Shown: in pieces, positions 37,439 to 57,607 of the stretch | How positions within the stretch are numbered: position 1 is the first letter of the stretch | How the letters are laid out: every line of letters starts with the position of its first letter | From: Telmatospirillum siberiense | GTDB lineage: Bacteria; Pseudomonadota; Alphaproteobacteria; Rhodospirillales; Magnetospirillaceae | NCBI RefSeq assembly: GCF_002845745.1 | Contig: NZ_PIUM01000004.1 | Span: forward strand, 62,001-126,000 | Direction of reading: 5' to 3' | Length of the DNA stretch: 64,000 nucleotides | Translations under genes and position numbers: made by a program | Notes under the pieces: generated by a model | Seen by the model: only the letters and a program-made list of their open reading frames with translations | Databases searched by the model: none | What the model was told of the DNA's origin: nothing

Positions 37439-37911
37439 CAAACATTCTCCTGGGGCGAAGTCTCGGCGGCGTATCAAACCGGGCAGGATCGCTGCCGGCA
37501 GGCGATTGAGTGCAAAAGCGATGCCAGGGAACGGGACTGTGCGTGATGCGCACTCTTTCTGACGAGTGGAGCGCAGCGCCGGTGGGAGGTGATGGAAAAA
37601 AGCTCAAAAATTAGGCAGATATTGATATATGCCTATGTCTTGAGCGATATCTCTTTTGGCAAGAGTATTGAAACTCAAGGACTTCCTCCGCAGTCGATTT
37701 TTTCAAGGATCTTGCCGTATACACGTCCCGGGCTGAGGTCTCCCGGTATTCGTAGGTGTTAAATTTTTATATTTTTCTATCATAAATTATTGCCAGTCAT
37801 TGATACCCTCCTCAAACGGGGATAGCCCGAGCTTGGGAAAAGAAGAAAAGTGGGCGGGAGCGCAGGGTTTAAAAAAAGACGGTCGACGGCGTCGGGGGCG
37901 AGGAGAGCGAT
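37439..37911. promoter_or_regulatory. Divergent promoter region of the ABC/amidase operon and a chemoreceptor gene
   Basis: A 473-bp non-coding space. It holds a near-perfect 22-bp palindrome at 37613-37634 (AGGCA...TGCCT arms with inner ATAT repeats) and a 15-bp palindrome at 37539-37553 (GTGCGTGATGCGCAC). Either is a plausible operator for the leftward operon, which has no regulator gene of its own. The right third is AT-rich and should hold the chemoreceptor promoter. Confidence 0.45.
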
Positions 37912-39618
37912 ATGATGAATTGGCGGATCGGTACGCGGATTTATGCCGTGGTTGCCATGTTGTCCCTGGTTTCCATCGTCCTGGCGGTGATTGGGCAGTG
38001 GGCCATGCAATCTTACGAACGCCACGTTCGGGATATCGTGATCGCATCGGATCGCGCCTTTATCGGCGAGCGTATCAACGGCGATATCTATGCGGTGGTG
38101 ATGGATTCCCGCGGCGTCTACATGGCGCGCTCCGCTGCCGAGGTCGAAAAGTTCGCCGTGCCCTTGCTGAAGACCCTCGATGATCTGGAAAAACAGGCTG
38201 ATGCCTGGAAAGCGCTCACCCCTGAGTCGCAAAAATCCCGGATGGCGGAATTGGATACCGAACTTCGCAGGTTTGTCGCCTTCCGCAAGGAACTGGTCCA
38301 GATCGGTCGTCAGCAGGGCAATCCGGCGGCCAGGGAGTATGGCGACAACGATCAGAACAGGGTCAATCGCCAGAAGCTGGGAAAGCAGGTGGCGGAGTTC
38401 GCCGAAGCGCACAATCGTGAGATTACCTTCCTGCGCGATGATTTGACGAAGTTTGGCCGGTGGCTGGAGATGCTTATTATGGGCGCGACCATCGCGGGCA
38501 TCATCACCGGGGTGGTCTTGTCGGTGCTGACGGTCAGGCGCTCGATCGTGGCGCCGTTTCATCGTCTGAAGGAGGCGACGATCACCCTGGCCGGGGGAGC
38601 GCTGGACGGCGTGACGCTCGATCTTGGGCGGCGTGACGAGATTGGCGAAATGGCCGCGGCGGTCGACGTGTGGCGGCGTAACGCCCTGACCCGCAGGGAA
38701 CAGGTGGCGGAGATCGAGACGGATCGGCGCGCACGGGCCGAGCGGGCCGTGCAGGTTCGGACTTTGACGCGGGAATTCGACGGTATGGCGGGGGCGACCA
38801 TCAAGGAACTGGTCGCATCGGCGAGCGCCTTGGAGAAGAGCGCCGAATCCATGGGCAATGTCGCCGAGCGGACGGCTGCGCGGGCCAACGCCGTAACCCA
38901 GGCATCCAATCTAGCGTCCGACAATGTGCAGGCGGTGAGTGTTGCGGCCGGGCAGTTGAATTCGTCGATTCGTGAAATCGCCGCCCTGGTCGAGGCCTCG
39001 CAGGACGTCGCCGAGGCGGCGACGGCCGAAGCCTCGAAGACCGACGCCCTGGTGCAAAATCTGGCCGGTTCGGCGCAGAAAATCGGCGATGTCATAAAAT
39101 TGATCGAGGATATTGCCGGGCAGACCAATCTCCTGGCCCTGAACGCCACCATCGAAGCGGCGCGGGCGGGGGCCGCCGGCAAGGGGTTTGCCGTCGTCGC
39201 CAACGAGGTAAAGCATTTGGCGACGCAGACCGCGCAGGCAACCGGCAACATCGCCTCGCAGATCGCCGAAGTGCAAACGCAGACCGTCGAGGCGGTGGCG
39301 GCTTTGGGGGAGATCTCCTCCATCATCGCCAAGGTCAAGGAATTTTCCGGCTCCATAGCCTCGGCCGTTCAGCAGCAGACGGCGGCAACCCAGGACATCG
39401 GGCGAAGCGTGCAAGGCGTGTCGGAATGTACCGGTGACGTCGCGGCCAATGCCGGCGAGGTTCTCGACGCCGCCAGCGCGGCGGACGAGGCGTCGACGGT
39501 CGTCTCGGAAGCGGCTGGCATCTTGCTCACGCGCGCCCGCTCATTGCAGGACGGAGTGCAGGGCTTTCTCAGCAAAGTGGGGGAAATTTCCAGAAAAGAC
39601 GAATCCTCGGCTTTCTAA
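37912..39618 (+). CDS. Methyl-accepting chemotaxis protein
   Basis: A 568-residue chemoreceptor: first membrane helix at about 12-32, a helical periplasmic sensor domain (about 35-180), second helix at about 183-205, HAMP (about 207-260), and a C-terminal signalling domain whose tip reads [20 protein letters not shown], the conserved CheA/CheW contact. No C-terminal CheR-tether pentapeptide. GAGGAGAG lies six bases before the ATG. It is divergent from the ABC/amidase operon, so it might sense the same compound, though this is only positional inference. Confidence 0.93.
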
Positions 39619-51125: not shown

Positions 51126-52163
51126 CTAACGCGAGGGGCGCGACTGGCTCGGCCGCTTTACCGCCCCCAGATCCGAAAGCGTTGGTGCCGCCAGGATCAG
51201 GCGGACCAATTCCGCCTGCCGGGTGACGTCGGTTTTGCTGAAGATGCGTTTCAGATAAGTCCGCGCGGAGTTGACCGTGATTCCCAATTTTTCCGCGGCA
51301 TCCTCGATGCGCTGGCCTTCGCTCAAGGCCAGGGCCAGACGTGCTTCGGCATCGGTCAGGTCGAACAATTTGGTGACGGTATCCACCGAGGGGAGGCTCT
51401 GGCGTTCCGGGTCGTTGATCAGCAGAACGGCCACGCGGCCATTGCTGTGTTCGGCCGGTAACGGGGCGATGACCACGGACAAGGGGCGGTCGGCCTCCTC
51501 GCGCGTTACCGCCAGGGCGTGCGCCATGGCGTCGCCACCGGCATCAACCGCCAGTTTCACCAAACGATGCAACTCGGCCGTTTCAGCTTGGCGGTTGGTT
51601 CTGCAAAGACCCGTCGGGCTCATGGTGAGGCCGTCGCCGCTGGCCAGATATTCCGTCCCCAGGCTGTTCATGAAGAGAATATTGGCGTCGGCATCGACCA
51701 CGACGACACCCGTGGGAAGCCTGTTTAGCGTCGCCAATCCCAGGGTGGCGTCCGGAGACATCATGGCCGGATTGGCATTTTTCTGCGCCGTTTGAATCAG
51801 GGCCTGATCGATGCCGGCGGCCAGAACCTCGGCCGAGCAGGGCTTGGCGTAGAACCGGAAAACGTTGGCCTCGTTGATGGCGGCGATGGCCGATTCGATG
51901 TCGGTGGCGCCGGTCAGCACGATGGCCGTGGTTCCCGGGCACAAGGCGCCCAATTCCTTGATCAGTTCGACGCCCGACATCACCGGCATGCGCATGTCGA
52001 CGACGGCGACGTCGAAGGGAAGGCGGCGCTGTTCGGCGATGGCCTCGATCGGCGATACCAGGAAGGACATCTGCCAACTGTTGCAGCGGCTGCGCAACGC
52101 CCGTTGCAACCCGTCGAGCACATGAGGTTCGTCATCGACGAACAGAATGCGTGGTTTTGTCAC
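51126..52163 (-). CDS. Response regulator: REC - PAS-like - LuxR helix-turn-helix
   Basis: A 345-residue regulator. REC at 1-120 with acidic pair FVDDEP, phospho-acceptor Asp in VVDMRMP (near 56), and Lys in YAKPCS (near 107). A PAS-like middle (LPTGVVVVDADANILFMNSL) and a C-terminal LuxR/GerE HTH (LTDAEARLALALSEGQRIED and NSARTYLKRIFSKT). It is divergent from the PAS-like protein and the histidine kinase. Its REC strongly resembles that of the REC-HDOD protein downstream, suggesting both take phosphate from the same kinase. Confidence 0.88.
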   Translation of the reverse strand: MTKPRILFVDDEPHVLDGLQRALRSRCNSWQMSFLVSPIEAIAEQRRLPFDVAVVDMRMPVMSGVELIKELGALCPGTTAIVLTGATDIESAIAAINEANVFRFYAKPCSAEVLAAGIDQALIQTAQKNANPAMMSPDATLGLATLNRLPTGVVVVDADANILFMNSLGTEYLASGDGLTMSPTGLCRTNRQAETAELHRLVKLAVDAGGDAMAHALAVTREEADRPLSVVIAPLPAEHSNGRVAVLLINDPERQSLPSVDTVTKLFDLTDAEARLALALSEGQRIEDAAEKLGITVNSARTYLKRIFSKTDVTRQAELVRLILAAPTLSDLGAVKRPSQSRPSR

Positions 52164-52323
52164 CTTGTCGCCTCCGTTCCCGTGTCCCGATTCCTCCAGC
52201 CGGTACCTGATGCGAAGTCTTCGTCATCTGGTCCCCAAATGGGGATATCGATGAAGGCGCGGGTATCGCTACGGTTCACTATTAACGACACACCAAAGTA
52301 GTTCGCGCAAGGGTTAGGGCCAA

Positions 52324-52716
52324 ATGAAGAAAGAGCGGCCGGCAAGACAAACGCAGTCCATCATTGCGGCCATATCATGTCCCTTGCTGATCCATGGCGA
52401 CGGTATCGTGAGTTGGGGCAATCAAGCGTTTTCCCAGCAATTCGGAATCCGTCCGGCAAAAGTCAAAAGTTTGAAGGTCCGGGAACTCCTCTGGTGCCTG
52501 GGAATCCAAGATCCCCTGGCGGGCATGATCGCTGAAGGCGTGACATTCGATCACTGGGAAATTCCTCCGCTCAATGCCGCTCTTTCCGCGCTTTATCTTC
52601 GCCAGGTTCGTCTATTCGACGAGGAGGAAAGCGGAAAAAAATACATCCTGATGATTTCCGATTCCCCGGAAATACCCGTCTTCGATGATTCCACCGATGA
52701 AGGCGGTACATGCTGA
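52324..52716 (+). CDS. Small PAS-like protein
   Basis: A 130-residue predicted cytoplasmic protein. IIAAISCPLLIHGDGIVSWGN and FSQQFGIRPAKVKSLKVREL follow the strand-helix pattern of a single PAS domain, and LRQVRLFDEEESGKKYILMI would be its final strands. No output domain. It is first in the rightward run ahead of the kinase, so it may be a detached sensor for it. Family assignment is by secondary structure only. Confidence 0.55.
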   Translation: MKKERPARQTQSIIAAISCPLLIHGDGIVSWGNQAFSQQFGIRPAKVKSLKVRELLWCLGIQDPLAGMIAEGVTFDHWEIPPLNAALSALYLRQVRLFDEEESGKKYILMISDSPEIPVFDDSTDEGGTC

Positions 52717-52888
52717 AGCCGGGAACTCCCACGTAACAGCGACATCAACCCCTGATTTGTCTTGCGCCACTGACTGGCTCTTGTTTTGCTATTGAATCGG
52801 CGGGACGGTCGATCCATCCGACAGGATTGCCGTGGCGACCGGCCCAGGCGGCGATTCTTGCCCGCCGGGGAGAGGGATAGGCAGAACC

Positions 52889-54553
52889 ATGCGGTCGAAG
52901 ATATTGCTGCTGTCGCAGGAGGGGCAGGCTCGGGTCGCCGACATGCTGGCGTCGCGGCCGGGGTTCGAAATTCGGATCGAGTCGGTCGGAACGATTCATC
53001 AAGCCAGAGAGATCCTGGCGGTGGAGAGTTTCGACGCGATTCTTTTCGATACCGGTTTGGCCGGCTCCGGCTTGCAGGAGGATATCCAGGCGATCGTAAG
53101 CGCCTGCGGCCCCGCTCCATTGATATTGCTTACCGACAAGGAGGATGAGGACATCGGGGCCGCGGCCGTCCATGCCGGTGCTCACGACTATCTGGTCAAG
53201 CGGCGCATCAACCCGGATGCCTTGCGACGGATTATTCGTTACGCCATCGAACGGACGCAGTTTCAACGCAAATATGATCGGCTGACCAGGCTGAACAGCG
53301 AGCGCAGGCGCATGGAGGAGGCCTTGCGGGAGAGCCAGGATCGTATCCGCGCGATCACGGAAAGTCTCTTCGAAGGCGTCCTGGTGACCGATATCGACGG
53401 TTTCGTGGCTTTTTCCAACCATTCGGCCGACAGCCTGCTGGGTGACGAACGGACCCCCCGGATCGCCGGCCGTTTCGTCGATTCGATCTTCAGCCTGCGC
53501 GCCGACCAGCGGCTGTTGCTGTTCTCGGAGGGTCCTTTCAGCAAGGTGGTGGAAACCGGGCAGTCCTGGCGTGACGACGATGCCGTCTTCCAATTGCGCA
53601 ACGGCCGAACCTTGTTGGTTGCCTACGCCTGTTCCGCCTTGGTCGAAGAGGGGATCCGTAAGGGAATCATCATATCCTTCCGCGATATCCAATCCTTGAA
53701 GCGGGCCCAGCAGGAATCGTTGCAGGCATCGAAGCTGGCCAGCGTCGGCCAGTTGGCCGCCGGCATCGCTCATGAAATCAATACGCCCATTCAATATATC
53801 GGCGATAATTTGCGTTTCCTGGGTGATTCCCTCGATACCCTGCTGGAGGTGAACCGCCGGTACCGCGACTTCATCGATCTCCATTGCGGCGAAGCGGACG
53901 CCCAGGCCAGGGAGGCGTTGGCGACGTTCGAGACCGAGTCCGATCTGTCCTATCTGCGAGAGGAGATGCCGCCGGCCGTCAGCCAATCTTTGGACGGGGT
54001 CGGCCAGGTGGCGAGGATCGTCCTCGCCATGAAGGAGTTTTCCCACCCCGGCGAGCGTGAAAAAGTCGCCGTCGATTTGAACCGGGCCATCGAAAACACC
54101 TTGGCGGTCAGTCGCAACGAATGGAAACACGTCGCCGAGGTGCGGTTGGATTTGGCCGAGGATCTACCTCAGGTGGCGTGCCTTCCCGGTGAGATGAATC
54201 AGGTGCTGCTCAATCTTATCGTCAACGCGGCTCACGCCATTCAGGCGCGCCAGTCCGCGGAAAAAGGCTTGATAAACCTGGCGACCCGCCGGCATGGCCG
54301 CTTCGTCGACATCATCGTCGGGGACGACGGCGTCGGGATGTCCGAAAGCATCAAGGAACGGATCTTCGATCCCTTCTTCACCACCAAGGCGGTCGGCAAG
54401 GGAACGGGGCAGGGACTGGCCATTTGTCGCGACGTTGTCGTCACCAAACATTCCGGCCGGATTTCCGTCGATACCGAGGAGGGGAAGGGGACGGTATTCA
54501 CCATCTGTCTGCCGATCGACGGAAAGGCCGCTCAGGCTGCCGGACGTAAATAA
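52889..54553 (+). CDS. Hybrid sensor histidine kinase: pseudo-REC - PAS - HisKA - HATPase
   Basis: A 554-residue soluble kinase. The N-terminal receiver (1-120) keeps Asp54 (LFDTGLAG) and Lys in DYLVKRR but lacks the paired acidic residues before it (LLLSQEG), so phosphorylation may be impaired. A PAS domain follows at about 150-270 (ITESLFEGVLVTDIDGFVAF), then HisKA with phospho-accepting His295 in AAGIAHEINTPI, and an ATPase domain with N box NLIVNAAHAI and G boxes DDGVGMS and GTGQGLAI. ATG at 52889; the TAATG overlap joins it to the REC-HDOD gene. Confidence 0.88.
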   Translation: MRSKILLLSQEGQARVADMLASRPGFEIRIESVGTIHQAREILAVESFDAILFDTGLAGSGLQEDIQAIVSACGPAPLILLTDKEDEDIGAAAVHAGAHDYLVKRRINPDALRRIIRYAIERTQFQRKYDRLTRLNSERRRMEEALRESQDRIRAITESLFEGVLVTDIDGFVAFSNHSADSLLGDERTPRIAGRFVDSIFSLRADQRLLLFSEGPFSKVVETGQSWRDDDAVFQLRNGRTLLVAYACSALVEEGIRKGIIISFRDIQSLKRAQQESLQASKLASVGQLAAGIAHEINTPIQYIGDNLRFLGDSLDTLLEVNRRYRDFIDLHCGEADAQAREALATFETESDLSYLREEMPPAVSQSLDGVGQVARIVLAMKEFSHPGEREKVAVDLNRAIENTLAVSRNEWKHVAEVRLDLAEDLPQVACLPGEMNQVLLNLIVNAAHAIQARQSAEKGLINLATRRHGRFVDIIVGDDGVGMSESIKERIFDPFFTTKAVGKGTGQGLAICRDVVVTKHSGRISVDTEEGKGTVFTICLPIDGKAAQAAGRK

Positions 54554-55776
54554 TGGGCCGGCCCCGCATTCTTTTCGTCGATGATGAACCCAACGTCTTG
54601 CAGGGACTGCAACGCATGTTGCGCTACATGCGGATCGAGTGGGATATGCGCTTCGTCGATTCCGGACGGGCCGCTCTCGATATGATGGAGCAAGAGCGCT
54701 TCGCGGCGGTGGTCACCGATATGCGGATGCCTGGCATGGACGGGGCCGAACTGCTCGCCGAGGTGAGGCGGCGCGATCCCGGCGCGGTCAGGGTCATCCT
54801 GTCCGGCTATTCCGACGCCGACAGCGTGATGCGCACTGTCGGGCCGGCCCATCAGTTTTTGGCCAAGCCCTGTTCCGCCCAGGTTTTGGTCGATGTCATC
54901 TTGCGGGCGTTCGAGTTGGAACGGGTCCTGGGATCGGAACATTTGCGCAAATTATTGACGGGTTTGAAGGGCCTGCCGACTCCTTCCGACACCTATTACA
55001 CCCTGCTCGATTATATGAAGCGGCCCGAGGCTTCGGCGACCGGACTTGCCGAGATCATCGGTCGAGACGTCGCGATGACCGCGGAGTTGCTCAAGCTGAC
55101 CAACTCTTCCTATTTCGGTTTGTCGTCCCGGTTGTCGCAGCCCTTGCAGGCGGTGCGCATTCTCGGTTTCGAAACCCTGGGCGCGTTGGTTTTGCGCATC
55201 GGAATATTCCGAAACTTCCAAGGGTTGCCTGAAATGGCCATGCTGGTCGAGGAGGTCAACCGCGACAGCTTTTTCGTGGCCAGGGTGGCCAGAAGAATTG
55301 CCAGGTTGGAAAACTTCGATGAGCATGCCCAGGAGGAGGCCTATTGCGCGGCGATGTTGAGTTCCATCGGCTTGCTGGTGCTGCTCGATCAATGTCCGCA
55401 CGACGTGGCTCGCGTCAAGGCGGCGGTCGCCGCCGGTGTCGATCCGCAGGATGCCGAGGTGGCGGTTTTCGGCGCCAGCCATTTTCAGGTCGGCGCCTAT
55501 CTGCTGGGCCTTTGGGGATTCAATAAGGCCGTCGTCGAGGCGGTGGCCTTTCTCGGGCGGCCCAGCGCGGCCTCCATCGGTGTCCTGGATATCGCCGGCG
55601 TCGTCCACATCGCCCGGGTTGTGTCCGGTCCTTCGCCCATTTACGCCCAGCCGGCGAAAGGTGCCGATATCGGCCGCCTGCCGCTTGACAAGGCTTATCT
55701 CCAATCGCTTGGAAAGGACGACCGGCTGGTCACCTGGTCGGCCGAGGCGGCTGTCGAGGCGGGGCGATCGAGCTGA
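54553..55776 (+). CDS. Response regulator: REC - HDOD
   Basis: A 407-residue regulator. REC (1-120) has FVDDEP, Asp in VVTDMRMPGMDG and Lys in FLAKPCS, all intact. An HDOD domain occupies about 130-330 (LPTPSDTYYTLLDYMKRPEA and AMTAELLKLTNSSYFGLSSR). HDOD proteins bind signalling partners and act in cyclic-dinucleotide and chemotaxis-linked circuits without hydrolysing. It starts one base before the kinase stop ends (TAATG), so the two are translated together. The REC is a close relative of that in the REC-PAS-LuxR protein at 51126. Confidence 0.9.
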   Translation: MGRPRILFVDDEPNVLQGLQRMLRYMRIEWDMRFVDSGRAALDMMEQERFAAVVTDMRMPGMDGAELLAEVRRRDPGAVRVILSGYSDADSVMRTVGPAHQFLAKPCSAQVLVDVILRAFELERVLGSEHLRKLLTGLKGLPTPSDTYYTLLDYMKRPEASATGLAEIIGRDVAMTAELLKLTNSSYFGLSSRLSQPLQAVRILGFETLGALVLRIGIFRNFQGLPEMAMLVEEVNRDSFFVARVARRIARLENFDEHAQEEAYCAAMLSSIGLLVLLDQCPHDVARVKAAVAAGVDPQDAEVAVFGASHFQVGAYLLGLWGFNKAVVEAVAFLGRPSAASIGVLDIAGVVHIARVVSGPSPIYAQPAKGADIGRLPLDKAYLQSLGKDDRLVTWSAEAAVEAGRSS

Positions 55777-56088: not shown

Positions 56089-56113
56089 CGCCAACTTCCA
56101 TTTGGAATTGGCG
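56089..56113 (-). terminator. Leftward terminator upstream of the deacetylase gene
   Basis: CGCCAA...TTGGCG arms with inner TTCC/GGAA; on the minus strand the stem is followed by TTTTTATTTATT, a textbook intrinsic terminator. No annotated minus-strand gene lies to its right, so it would end an antisense or small-RNA transcript. Confidence 0.55.
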
Positions 56114-56164
56114 GCAATGACGGCAGGTATAATAAAAAATTGCTGTCAGGGAGGTTCAAGAAGC

Positions 56165-57103
56165 ATGACCACGCTTTTGCTGACGCACCCAGCGTGCCTG
56201 CAGCACGAGACGGGGGATTATCACCCGGAATGTGCCGATCGTTTGCGGGCGGTCAACCATATCCTCGAACATGAGGATTTCTTGTTCCTGGCGCGGGAGG
56301 AGGCTCCTCGCGCCACCACGCAGCAATTGTTGCGCGCCCATTCCATGGATCATATCGACCATATCCTGTCGTTGGTTCCCGCCGCGGGAGAGATTCTCCC
56401 CATCGACGACGACACCTTCGTCTCGTCCCACTCCAGCGAGGCGGCTCTGAGGGCGGCGGGCGCCATTTGCGCCGCCGTCGAGGAAGTGGCGGCGAAAAGA
56501 TGCCGGAATGCTTTTTGCGCGGTGCGTCCACCCGGACATCATGCCGAGCGGTCGGCGGCGATGGGATTCTGCCTGTTTTCCAATGCGGCCATCGGCGCGT
56601 TGCATGCCCGTGACGCTTGCGGATTTCGGAAAGTGGCAGTGATCGATTTCGACGTGCACCACGGCAATGGAACGCAACAGATCCTTTGGGACGAGGCGGG
56701 CATGTTCTATGCGTCCACTCATCAGCAGGACGCATATCCCTATAGCGGGACGCCGGACGAGCAGGGGCAGCCGGGGGGAGGTGTCATCGTCAATATACCA
56801 TTGCCGGCGGGCAGCGGTTCGGACGCCTTCCGGCTTGCCTATGGCGACATCATCCTGCCCCGTCTTCGTGCCTTTGCTCCGGAATTCGTGATCGTCTCGG
56901 CGGGATTCGATGCCCATGCCGCGGATCCGATGGCGGATTTACGGCTGCAGGTGGCCGATTTCGAATGGGTGACCCGCGAGTTGTTGCGGATTGCCGAGGA
57001 TTTTTGCGGCGCTCGGCTGGTTTCTGTTTTGGAGGGTGGCTACGACACCCGTGCCCTGGCCGCCTGCGTCGCGTCCCATGTGCGCGCGCTCATGGAAGGA
57101 TAA
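56165..57103 (+). CDS. Histone-deacetylase-family enzyme (class II HDAC-like)
   Basis: A 312-residue member of the HDAC/acetoin-utilisation/acetylpolyamine-amidohydrolase superfamily. The active site is complete: tandem His in RPPGHHAE, metal ligands Asp and His in DFDVHHGNGTQQ, second Asp in SAGFDAH, and the LEGGYD loop. Zinc-dependent removal of acetyl groups from lysine or small amines is the expected chemistry. ATG at 56165 starts the canonical TLLLTHPACLQHETG segment. Bacterial members act on polyamines or proteins; the context of signalling genes does not decide. Confidence 0.9.
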   Translation: MTTLLLTHPACLQHETGDYHPECADRLRAVNHILEHEDFLFLAREEAPRATTQQLLRAHSMDHIDHILSLVPAAGEILPIDDDTFVSSHSSEAALRAAGAICAAVEEVAAKRCRNAFCAVRPPGHHAERSAAMGFCLFSNAAIGALHARDACGFRKVAVIDFDVHHGNGTQQILWDEAGMFYASTHQQDAYPYSGTPDEQGQPGGGVIVNIPLPAGSGSDAFRLAYGDIILPRLRAFAPEFVIVSAGFDAHAADPMADLRLQVADFEWVTRELLRIAEDFCGARLVSVLEGGYDTRALAACVASHVRALMEG

Positions 57104-57157
57104 CACCATGTCGGACCGGGAGCTTTCCTCCGTAATGGTCCTTTGTCATCGGGGTCA

Positions 57158-57607
57158 ATGATGCAATTCATCGAATGGACGACGCAGATGTCCGTAGGGT
57201 CCGATGTGCTGGACGGACATCACAAGATGATCATCGAATGCCTGAATCGTCTGTATCCCTTGATCGGGGCGGTAGGGCGGGATGCCGAGATCCATGCCGT
57301 CCTGGCTAAATTGGAAGATTTCGTGCTCGTTCACTTCAGCGAAGAAGAGCAATGCATGAAAAAAGGCGGTTACCTCGACTGGCAGGCGCATAAAGAGCAG
57401 CACGATAAAATGTATGACATTGTTTTCGGACTGAAGTCGGATGTGGAACATGGCAGGGAGTTGGATGCCAAGAAATTGTTTGACATCATATACAATTGGC
57501 TGCTTCAGCATATTTTGAAGGAAGACAAAAAATACGAAAAATTCATTAATAATACGGTGAATGATCCTCATGGTGTCTGGGTCAGGTCCAATGGTCGGCC
57601 GTATTAA
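57158..57607 (+). CDS. Bacteriohemerythrin
   Basis: A 149-residue single-domain hemerythrin, a di-iron O2-binding four-helix bundle. All seven ligands are present: His21/22 (DGHHKM), His59 and Glu63 (HFSEEE), His78 and His82 (AHKEQHDKM), His118 and Asp123 (HILKED). In motile alphaproteobacteria and magnetotactic relatives such proteins buffer or sense oxygen near chemoreceptors. A chemoreceptor remnant lies directly downstream. Start 57158 or 57161. Confidence 0.93.
   Translation: MMQFIEWTTQMSVGSDVLDGHHKMIIECLNRLYPLIGAVGRDAEIHAVLAKLEDFVLVHFSEEEQCMKKGGYLDWQAHKEQHDKMYDIVFGLKSDVEHGRELDAKKLFDIIYNWLLQHILKEDKKYEKFINNTVNDPHGVWVRSNGRPY

Follow-up and report, generated by a model that had tools for sequence, protein, structure and literature searches.

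A conserved kinase-LuxR-HDOD gene module with a degenerate kinase receiver and a candidate operator in Telmatospirillum siberiense

The window analyzed here is a stretch of 64,000 nucleotides from Telmatospirillum siberiense (contig NZ_PIUM01000004.1, positions 62,001 to 126,000), and the system in question is a group of four genes in it, which encode a REC-PAS-LuxR response regulator, a small stand-alone PAS-like protein, a histidine kinase with an N-terminal receiver, and a REC-HDOD protein (Table 1). The LuxR-type gene is divergent from the other three, and a conserved palindrome, TCCCCAAATGGGGA, lies in the promoter region between them. An earlier note on this DNA had described the kinase and the two response regulators; the small PAS gene, the proposed operator with its probable targets, and the sister module were absent from it.

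In Pfam, the LuxR regulator matched Response_reg (7.9e-16), and its helix-turn-helix (HTH) region gave only a weak match (Sigma70_r4_2, below the cut-off). The assignment of its middle domain to PAS was made by visual inspection; for a relative from Labrenzia, weak matches to PAS were obtained together with a GerE match that narrowly missed the cut-off. The REC-HDOD protein matched Response_reg (2.5e-20) and HDOD (3.6e-44), and the kinase matched HATPase_c (2.9e-21), with HisKA found only below the cut-off and the H-box residue His295 invariant in all ten orthologs. The small PAS-like protein had no family match in Pfam or NCBIfam. Its structural model (predicted local distance difference test, pLDDT, 81) retrieved LOV/PAS structures in Foldseek, with a best E value of 6.9e-5 and template modelling (TM) scores by query length of 0.47–0.59 among the 50 matches listed; on the evidence of the model, the protein has a PAS fold. 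The predicted TM score (pTM) of the kinase model was 0.37, and the arrangement of the kinase domains in it was therefore left unused.

Table 1. Positions of the module genes, the palindromic sites, and a candidate target gene in the window
Feature	Position	Strand	Description
REC-PAS-LuxR response regulator	51126..52163	-	345 aa, GTG start; receiver residues 6-116, LuxR-type HTH at C terminus
Conserved palindrome TCCCCAAATGGGGA	52232..52245	.	in the divergent promoter; putative operator for the LuxR protein
Stand-alone PAS-like protein	52324..52716	+	130 aa; proposed auxiliary sensor
Histidine kinase	52889..54553	+	554 aa; possible alternative GTG start upstream at 52832
Kinase domains			degenerate receiver ~1-120; PAS 152-267; DHp with His295 (HEINTPIQ); ATPase 436-543 (from Pfam, the ten-ortholog alignment, and the model)
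Degenerate receiver of the kinase	52889..53260	+	acidic pair lost; Asp54, Thr82, Lys104 present
REC-HDOD protein	54553..55776	+	407 aa; start overlaps kinase stop codon (TAATG)
Weaker palindrome-like site	37809..37822	+	2 mismatches; ~90 bases upstream of chemoreceptor gene; candidate target only
Methyl-accepting chemotaxis protein	37912..39618	+	candidate target; MCPsignal match C44:100989-101486 = window 38989-39486

Orthologs of the kinase that extend into the N-terminal receiver were found in 10 of 55 genomes of the family, the window genome included. All four genes, with the LuxR gene divergent, are present in nine of these; the tenth locus (L125) ends at a contig edge before the LuxR gene would be reached. 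Orthologs of the LuxR regulator were found in nine genomes including that of the window, together with a contig-end fragment in G004; an apparent LuxR entry for G005 is actually the HDOD protein of that genome at a contig end, and was excluded from every LuxR count. A homolog of the small PAS protein occupies the corresponding place in all ten loci. The start and stop codons of the kinase and HDOD genes overlap at nine of ten junctions, and at the remaining one (L124) the frames overlap, with an uncertain start codon for the HDOD gene. Thirteen further genomes have REC-PAS-LuxR proteins of a second class only (38–46% identical), and G018 and G050 carry both classes. Twelve of the 18 second-class matches were read at the locus level, and in six of these the LuxR gene occurs together with a HEINTP-type kinase and a REC-HDOD gene. 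None of the 12 loci contained a small PAS gene detectable with our own profile or a receiver match ahead of any kinase, suggesting that the degenerate receiver and the small PAS protein co-occur as a subtype in these genomes.

The receivers of the LuxR and HDOD proteins had been taken for recent siblings, and the strings RILFVDDEP, VLxGLQR, and AKPCS are indeed verbatim in both. Their overall identity is 45–46%. Among the 120 receiver matches of the window genome, the two belong to a clan of four, the other two receivers being those of the REC-HDOD and REC-HD-GYP proteins encoded at a second locus on contig C33. The nearest relative of the HDOD receiver is the C33 HDOD receiver (54% identity, 131 bits) rather than the LuxR receiver (46%, 89 bits), and the LuxR receiver scores 91 bits with the C33 HDOD receiver, 89 with its HDOD neighbor, 69 with the C33 HD-GYP receiver, and at most 43 with the remainder. 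In a tree of 82 receivers (136 columns, 23 open forks), the nine LuxR receivers formed one group (support 100/98), those of the module's HDOD proteins grouped with the other HDOD receivers of the family (98/96), and a branch with support of 100/97 separated the LuxR receivers from nearly all HDOD receivers; the exceptions were an HDOD receiver (L059) on the LuxR side and another receiver (L046) on the HDOD side. Constraining the module LuxR and HDOD receivers to group together cost 43.7 log units, with a p value of 0.0089 in the approximately unbiased (AU) test. A recent duplication is thus rejected on the basis of the nearest-relative scores, the tree, and the AU test. Two of the shared strings also vary among the orthologous LuxR receivers (e.g. 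AKPST, TKPCA, and TKPSP for AKPCS; GLRR, ALRR, and ALGR for GLQR). As judged from the sequences, the resemblance is beyond chance, since almost no other receiver in the genome comes as close, but it is one of clan membership between separate old lineages. The helix-1 motif VLxGLxR was absent from the 27 other receivers of the same genome with a readable start, the C33 HD-GYP receiver included, an absence that fits a common kinase docking surface. Both output receivers retain the full active site (the DD pair, Asp, Thr/Ser, and Lys), the LuxR receiver in 9/9 and the HDOD receiver in 10/10 orthologs.

The receiver at the N terminus of the kinase is different. As the earlier note had observed, the only kinase between the two output receivers carries a receiver devoid of the acidic pair. 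SQ stands in place of DD. In Pfam, this region scored 29.3 bits for the protein, just below the cut-off of 30.2, and 32.4 bits, above it, in the genome scan; its model shows alternating strands and helices. At the position of the acidic pair, the ten orthologs have SQ, SE, LD, LD, AT, EP, EP, EG, DP, and AT, in an alignment with the LuxR and HDOD receivers that is uncertain by one residue at this point (G013 has D-P-D there). Asp54 is retained in all ten orthologs, Thr in nine, and Lys in seven. Hence, the proposal of a non-phosphorylatable regulatory receiver holds as regards the loss of the acidic pair in 10/10 orthologs, whereas the invariant Asp54 leaves non-phosphorylatability unproven. 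The five kinases outside the family whose N-terminal receiver was read (L047, L056, L060, L073, and L085) have a normal pair, and a REC-HDOD gene follows the kinase within 400 bases in L047, L056, and L085. This set does not include every listed kinase with such a receiver, e.g. the second kinase of L056, and of the further loci that were retrieved, only those named in the text were used. Judging by the intact pair of the five outside kinases, the pair was probably lost within the lineage of the present module. Phosphorylation of a receiver needs a bound metal, and the kinase receiver is likely to be no longer phosphorylated for want of metal binding. According to the available text of PMC4395418, three acidic residues take part in receiver phosphotransfer.

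Two other explanations of this domain were considered. The receiver might merely be decaying and have no role, as it ranks last in conservation among ten domains (mean identity 0.45, as against 0.65–0.70 for the partner receivers and 0.49 for the small PAS protein) and lacks the Lys in three orthologs. The reading frame is, however, unbroken in all ten orthologs, Asp54 is invariant, and 19 of 125 columns are invariant, so that we regard simple decay as rather unlikely. It is less probable still that the receiver is phosphorylated by another donor and serves as an input as in LvrB: the retention of Asp, Thr, and Lys at the above frequencies and the complete pair of the five related outside kinases would agree with such a role, but not one of the orthologs has the canonical acidic pair.

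When the divergent promoters of the nine complete loci were aligned, a single strongly conserved stretch, TCCCCAAATGGGGA, was found, and it was present in all nine. The match was exact in five loci, differed by one change in three, and by three changes in one (G013), where the sequence reads TCCCTAAACAGGGA; both arms are altered in this version, yet they are still complementary. The palindrome was fixed from this alignment prior to any look at targets, and the same pattern read backwards was used as the control in genome scans. With up to two mismatches, the window genome had 31 + 30 matches on the two strands as compared with 6 + 7 for the reversed control, a perfect site being counted on both strands. 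With up to one mismatch, there were 85 matches in the 11 genomes with an orthologous LuxR or the module (control 3), 26 in the 13 genomes with the second LuxR class only (control 7), and 17 in the 31 genomes that lack both classes (control 17). The Mann-Whitney p values against the LuxR-less genomes were 1.4e-7 for the orthologous LuxR and 3.4e-5 for the second class only. G004, which has four matches and no kinase match, was an apparent exception until the LuxR fragment was found at a contig end. Within genus g17, the module genome G050 has six matches, including two exact ones, and exact matches are absent from the 16 other genomes. In G046, which has a second-class LuxR, six variant sites with up to two mismatches lie inside 19.5 kb around that gene.

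To assign targets, a gene had to start between 70 bases before and 450 bases after the site center, and domains were identified with our own profiles (chemoreceptor, GGDEF, EAL, hemerythrin, kinase, receiver, HDOD, HD-GYP, FIST, H-NOX, and the module). The 11 genomes have 82 distinct sites, of which 36 precede a signalling gene, five of the 36 being the module itself and 14 chemoreceptors. In the LuxR-less genomes, 0/16 sites preceded a signalling gene, and one site was inside a GGDEF-EAL frame. The difference was significant with all sites (Fisher p = 2.9e-4) and after removal of the module's own sites (31/74, 5.1e-4). For chemoreceptors, approximately 0.5 of 82 sites would be expected in place of the 14 observed, an expectation derived from the 79 above-cut-off chemoreceptor matches of the window genome, with the same density assumed elsewhere and with related genomes that are not independent. 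Of the 11 sites of the window genome, eight precede the module, the C33 kinase gene, three chemoreceptor genes, a GGDEF-EAL gene, a DUF1465 gene, and a dCache-GGDEF gene, and three look unrelated; the dCache-GGDEF site is located approximately 490 bases ahead of its gene, beyond the limit, and was not counted. At two sites (G054 C318 and G051 C97), the target could have been a gene that we take to encode a DNA polymerase from the start of its sequence, but the same sites precede a divergent C33-type kinase gene, which is the better reading. The DUF1465 gene of the window genome (C75, L224:2080) has a counterpart in G052 (C91, L272), where the palindrome lies ahead of the gene for a 47% identical protein.

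The C33 locus of the window genome (L114:4647-11661) encodes a MASE1-CHASE-PAS kinase, a REC-HDOD protein, and a REC-HD-GYP protein. Full-length relatives of the kinase (55–69% identical) occur in the other three genomes of the genus that have the module, and a palindrome with one mismatch lies upstream of the C33-type kinase gene in all four. REC-HDOD and REC-HD-GYP genes follow in three of the four; in G052, the kinase is followed not by an HDOD gene but by a GGDEF-EAL gene, which has an exact site of its own, and the sister operon is thus not universal. The third protein of the C33 locus lacks the GYP string, as do the other listed receiver proteins that lack HDOD, and its HD-GYP motif thus looks degenerate. 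The DHp motif of the window kinase recurs in a third kinase, a FIST-PAS histidine kinase encoded on contig C10 (L115:7755-11507); the 17 kb examined around it yielded no receiver similar to the two of the module.

Docking positions were taken from the titles of PDB entries 4jas, 4jav, and 6rh8 and mapped by hand, three of five kinase positions being mapped. At H+8/+11/+15, the kinases have Y,D,F (window), Y,D,Y (C33), and Y,D,F (C10). The corresponding receiver residues are H,V,G,A in the LuxR protein, N,V,G,M in the HDOD protein, H,V,G,A in the C33 HDOD protein, and H,L,A,Q in the C33 HD-GYP protein. Since the three HEINTP kinases are near-identical at these positions, the modules may not be insulated from each other, and the HEINTP modules of the window genome may exchange phosphate.

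Two further loci have kinases of this type. At the Labrenzia locus (L040:775-6384), an H-NOX gene and a HEINTP kinase gene are found with the nearest tree relative of the LuxR receivers; the LuxR and kinase genes are at most 8.7 kb apart with no HDOD gene there, and the open reading frames between the H-NOX, kinase, and LuxR genes are presumably transposase-like. In G050, a single frame (L248:13082-15844; see also L238) combines a hemerythrin domain with a HEINTP-type kinase, has an exact palindrome upstream, and adjoins genes for a second-class LuxR and an HD-type regulator.

Taken together, it is likely that the four genes form one two-component module with two outputs, the LuxR arm of which would bind TCCCCAAATGGGGA and control chemoreceptor and c-di-GMP (cyclic di-GMP) genes as well as the sister module. 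We infer that the kinase is the phosphate donor to both receivers from the gene order, the gene overlap, the intact receivers, and the docking positions; as an HExxT kinase, it would probably also dephosphorylate them. One arm would be the REC-HDOD protein, the gene of which overlaps the kinase gene, with a non-transcriptional output, possibly a role similar to the restraint exerted by a degenerate HD-GYP protein on HnoB. The other arm would be the LuxR regulator, acting at its own divergent promoter, and hence on the PAS-kinase-HDOD operon, and on genes for chemoreceptors, GGDEF/EAL proteins, and hemerythrins. In the genus of the window genome, it would also control the sister kinase gene, which heads a kinase-HDOD-HD-GYP operon in 3/4 genomes. 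The receiver of the kinase is best pictured as a former phosphorylation input, as in REC-controlled kinases, that lost its metal pocket. Any present action of this domain would be structural or mediated by contact with a protein, perhaps the small PAS protein. As to the signal, a gas, e.g. O2 or NO, or a redox cue would be a fair guess, suggested by the FIST-PAS kinase on C10, the H-NOX gene in Labrenzia, the hemerythrin-kinase frame, and a bacteriohemerythrin gene downstream of the module. The branched relay of the earlier note, in which one kinase serves LuxR and HDOD regulators, is supported by the gene set in ten genomes (the LuxR gene being off the contig in one), the kinase/HDOD overlap, the intact output receivers, and the second-class loci that combine LuxR, kinase, and REC-HDOD genes, with phosphotransfer itself as the inferred step.

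Several observations weigh against this interpretation. In G013, the regulator is present but there are only three matches to the palindrome, and the site in its own promoter differs at three of 14 bases. With our own profiles, no signalling gene was assigned to 46 of the 82 sites, and 13 sites were flagged as lying inside a reading frame by domain type or high GC content at third codon positions, although four of these are the module's own sites, where the frame extends upstream of the start. The four module genomes of the window's genus contribute 50 of the 82 sites, and the genomes are thus not independent. The gene order after the sister kinase in G052 is a further deviation, and the docking argument compares a few positions and is not a coevolution analysis. 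Finally, the palindrome could belong to another regulator. A regulator of motility genes with global reach would have the LuxR operon as one target among several; the scattering of sites throughout the genome is compatible with this, and signalling genes could have a motility regulator in common. Such ownership appears unlikely to us, as the matches track the LuxR gene across the 55 genomes and also within genus g17 (G050 versus the 16 others), and six variant sites in G046 lie around the second-class LuxR gene. We consider it similarly improbable that the kinase pairs with the REC-HDOD protein only and that the LuxR regulator answers to another kinase, e.g. the FIST kinase on C10. The kinase and HDOD genes overlap while the LuxR gene is on the opposite strand, and the C10 kinase has the matching DHp motif and no similar receiver in the 17 kb examined around it. 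On the other hand, the LuxR gene is divergent beside the kinase operon in all nine loci, second-class LuxR genes often occur alongside such kinases, and in Labrenzia a LuxR gene and such a kinase gene are neighbors in a region devoid of HDOD. The preferred interpretation is one kinase with two outputs. A further-reaching version of it, which we regard as doubtful, is that the degenerate receiver is now a phosphate-independent docking site for the small PAS protein, reading a protein-borne, perhaps gas, signal, and that the two sister kinase-HDOD modules are cross-wired via shared phosphate docking and the TCCCCAAATGGGGA regulon, jointly re-setting the chemoreceptor repertoire and c-di-GMP enzymes.

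The closest known systems differ from the module in defined ways. According to the available parts of PMC6335343 and PMC8846402, the kinases of the Hno network of Shewanella oneidensis (HnoX, HnoK/HnoS, HnoB, HnoC, and HnoD) branch to several regulators, including a transcription factor and a degenerate HD-GYP protein without phosphodiesterase activity, which restrains the phosphodiesterase HnoB. For the present module, a comparable branching to transcriptional and non-transcriptional outputs is predicted from genomic association. The module is without an EAL regulator, has HDOD in place of the degenerate HD-GYP domain, and carries a degenerate receiver on the kinase. H-NOX was considered as the missing sensor and rejected, as there was no H-NOX match in any of the 55 family genomes. 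In the NosP-NosK-NosR system of Burkholderia and others, NosK likewise has an H-E-x-x-T/N motif, as stated in the accessible text of PMC12570481. NosR was the best NCBIfam match of both regulators, chiefly over the receiver, with 98 and 132 bits; these scores are far below the cut-off of 400, and the assignment was rejected. NosR, moreover, carries a degenerate HD-GYP domain, and the present module has two outputs. No FIST match was found in the module proteins or in the neighbors scanned. By analogy, the network would work like Hno and NosP/NosK/NosR but without their sensors, and the module was therefore filed as neither.

LvrB of Leptospira, a REC-controlled kinase that was also listed in our structure search, has an N-terminal receiver like that of the window kinase, as far as the accessible part of PMC13269768 describes it; the window kinase has lost the acidic pair and has a PAS domain between the receiver and DHp. 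The aspartate-less receivers covered in the available part of PMC4395418 likewise have an atypical active site, but the kinase receiver keeps the Asp and loses the acidic pair, and the presence of Asp54 in 10/10 orthologs excludes it from that class. In a search of the open-access literature, as far as its text was accessible, neither the palindrome nor the gene set of the module was described in any paper retrieved.

To our knowledge, HDOD response regulators have no settled function. The HDOD regulator described here is accompanied by its kinase, by a transcription factor as partner, and by a predicted operator, and the network thus has concrete, testable outputs. A receiver that has the Asp but not the acidic pair in ten genomes, beside intact relatives, is also a good case in which to examine how the input of REC-controlled kinases changes. 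If the predicted regulon is real, a regulator that sets the expression of many chemoreceptors would join the signal of the kinase to chemotaxis and c-di-GMP.

Other features of the window were also noted. The palindrome-like site at 37809 is weak, as 6 of 100 shuffles gave as many matches in the window. Downstream of the module, a histone-deacetylase-like gene and the bacteriohemerythrin gene are located at 56102-57607. The same pair is present in the other three genomes of the genus that have the module (L117-L119); among the stretches from other genera (L120-L125), hemerythrin was found in L120 only.

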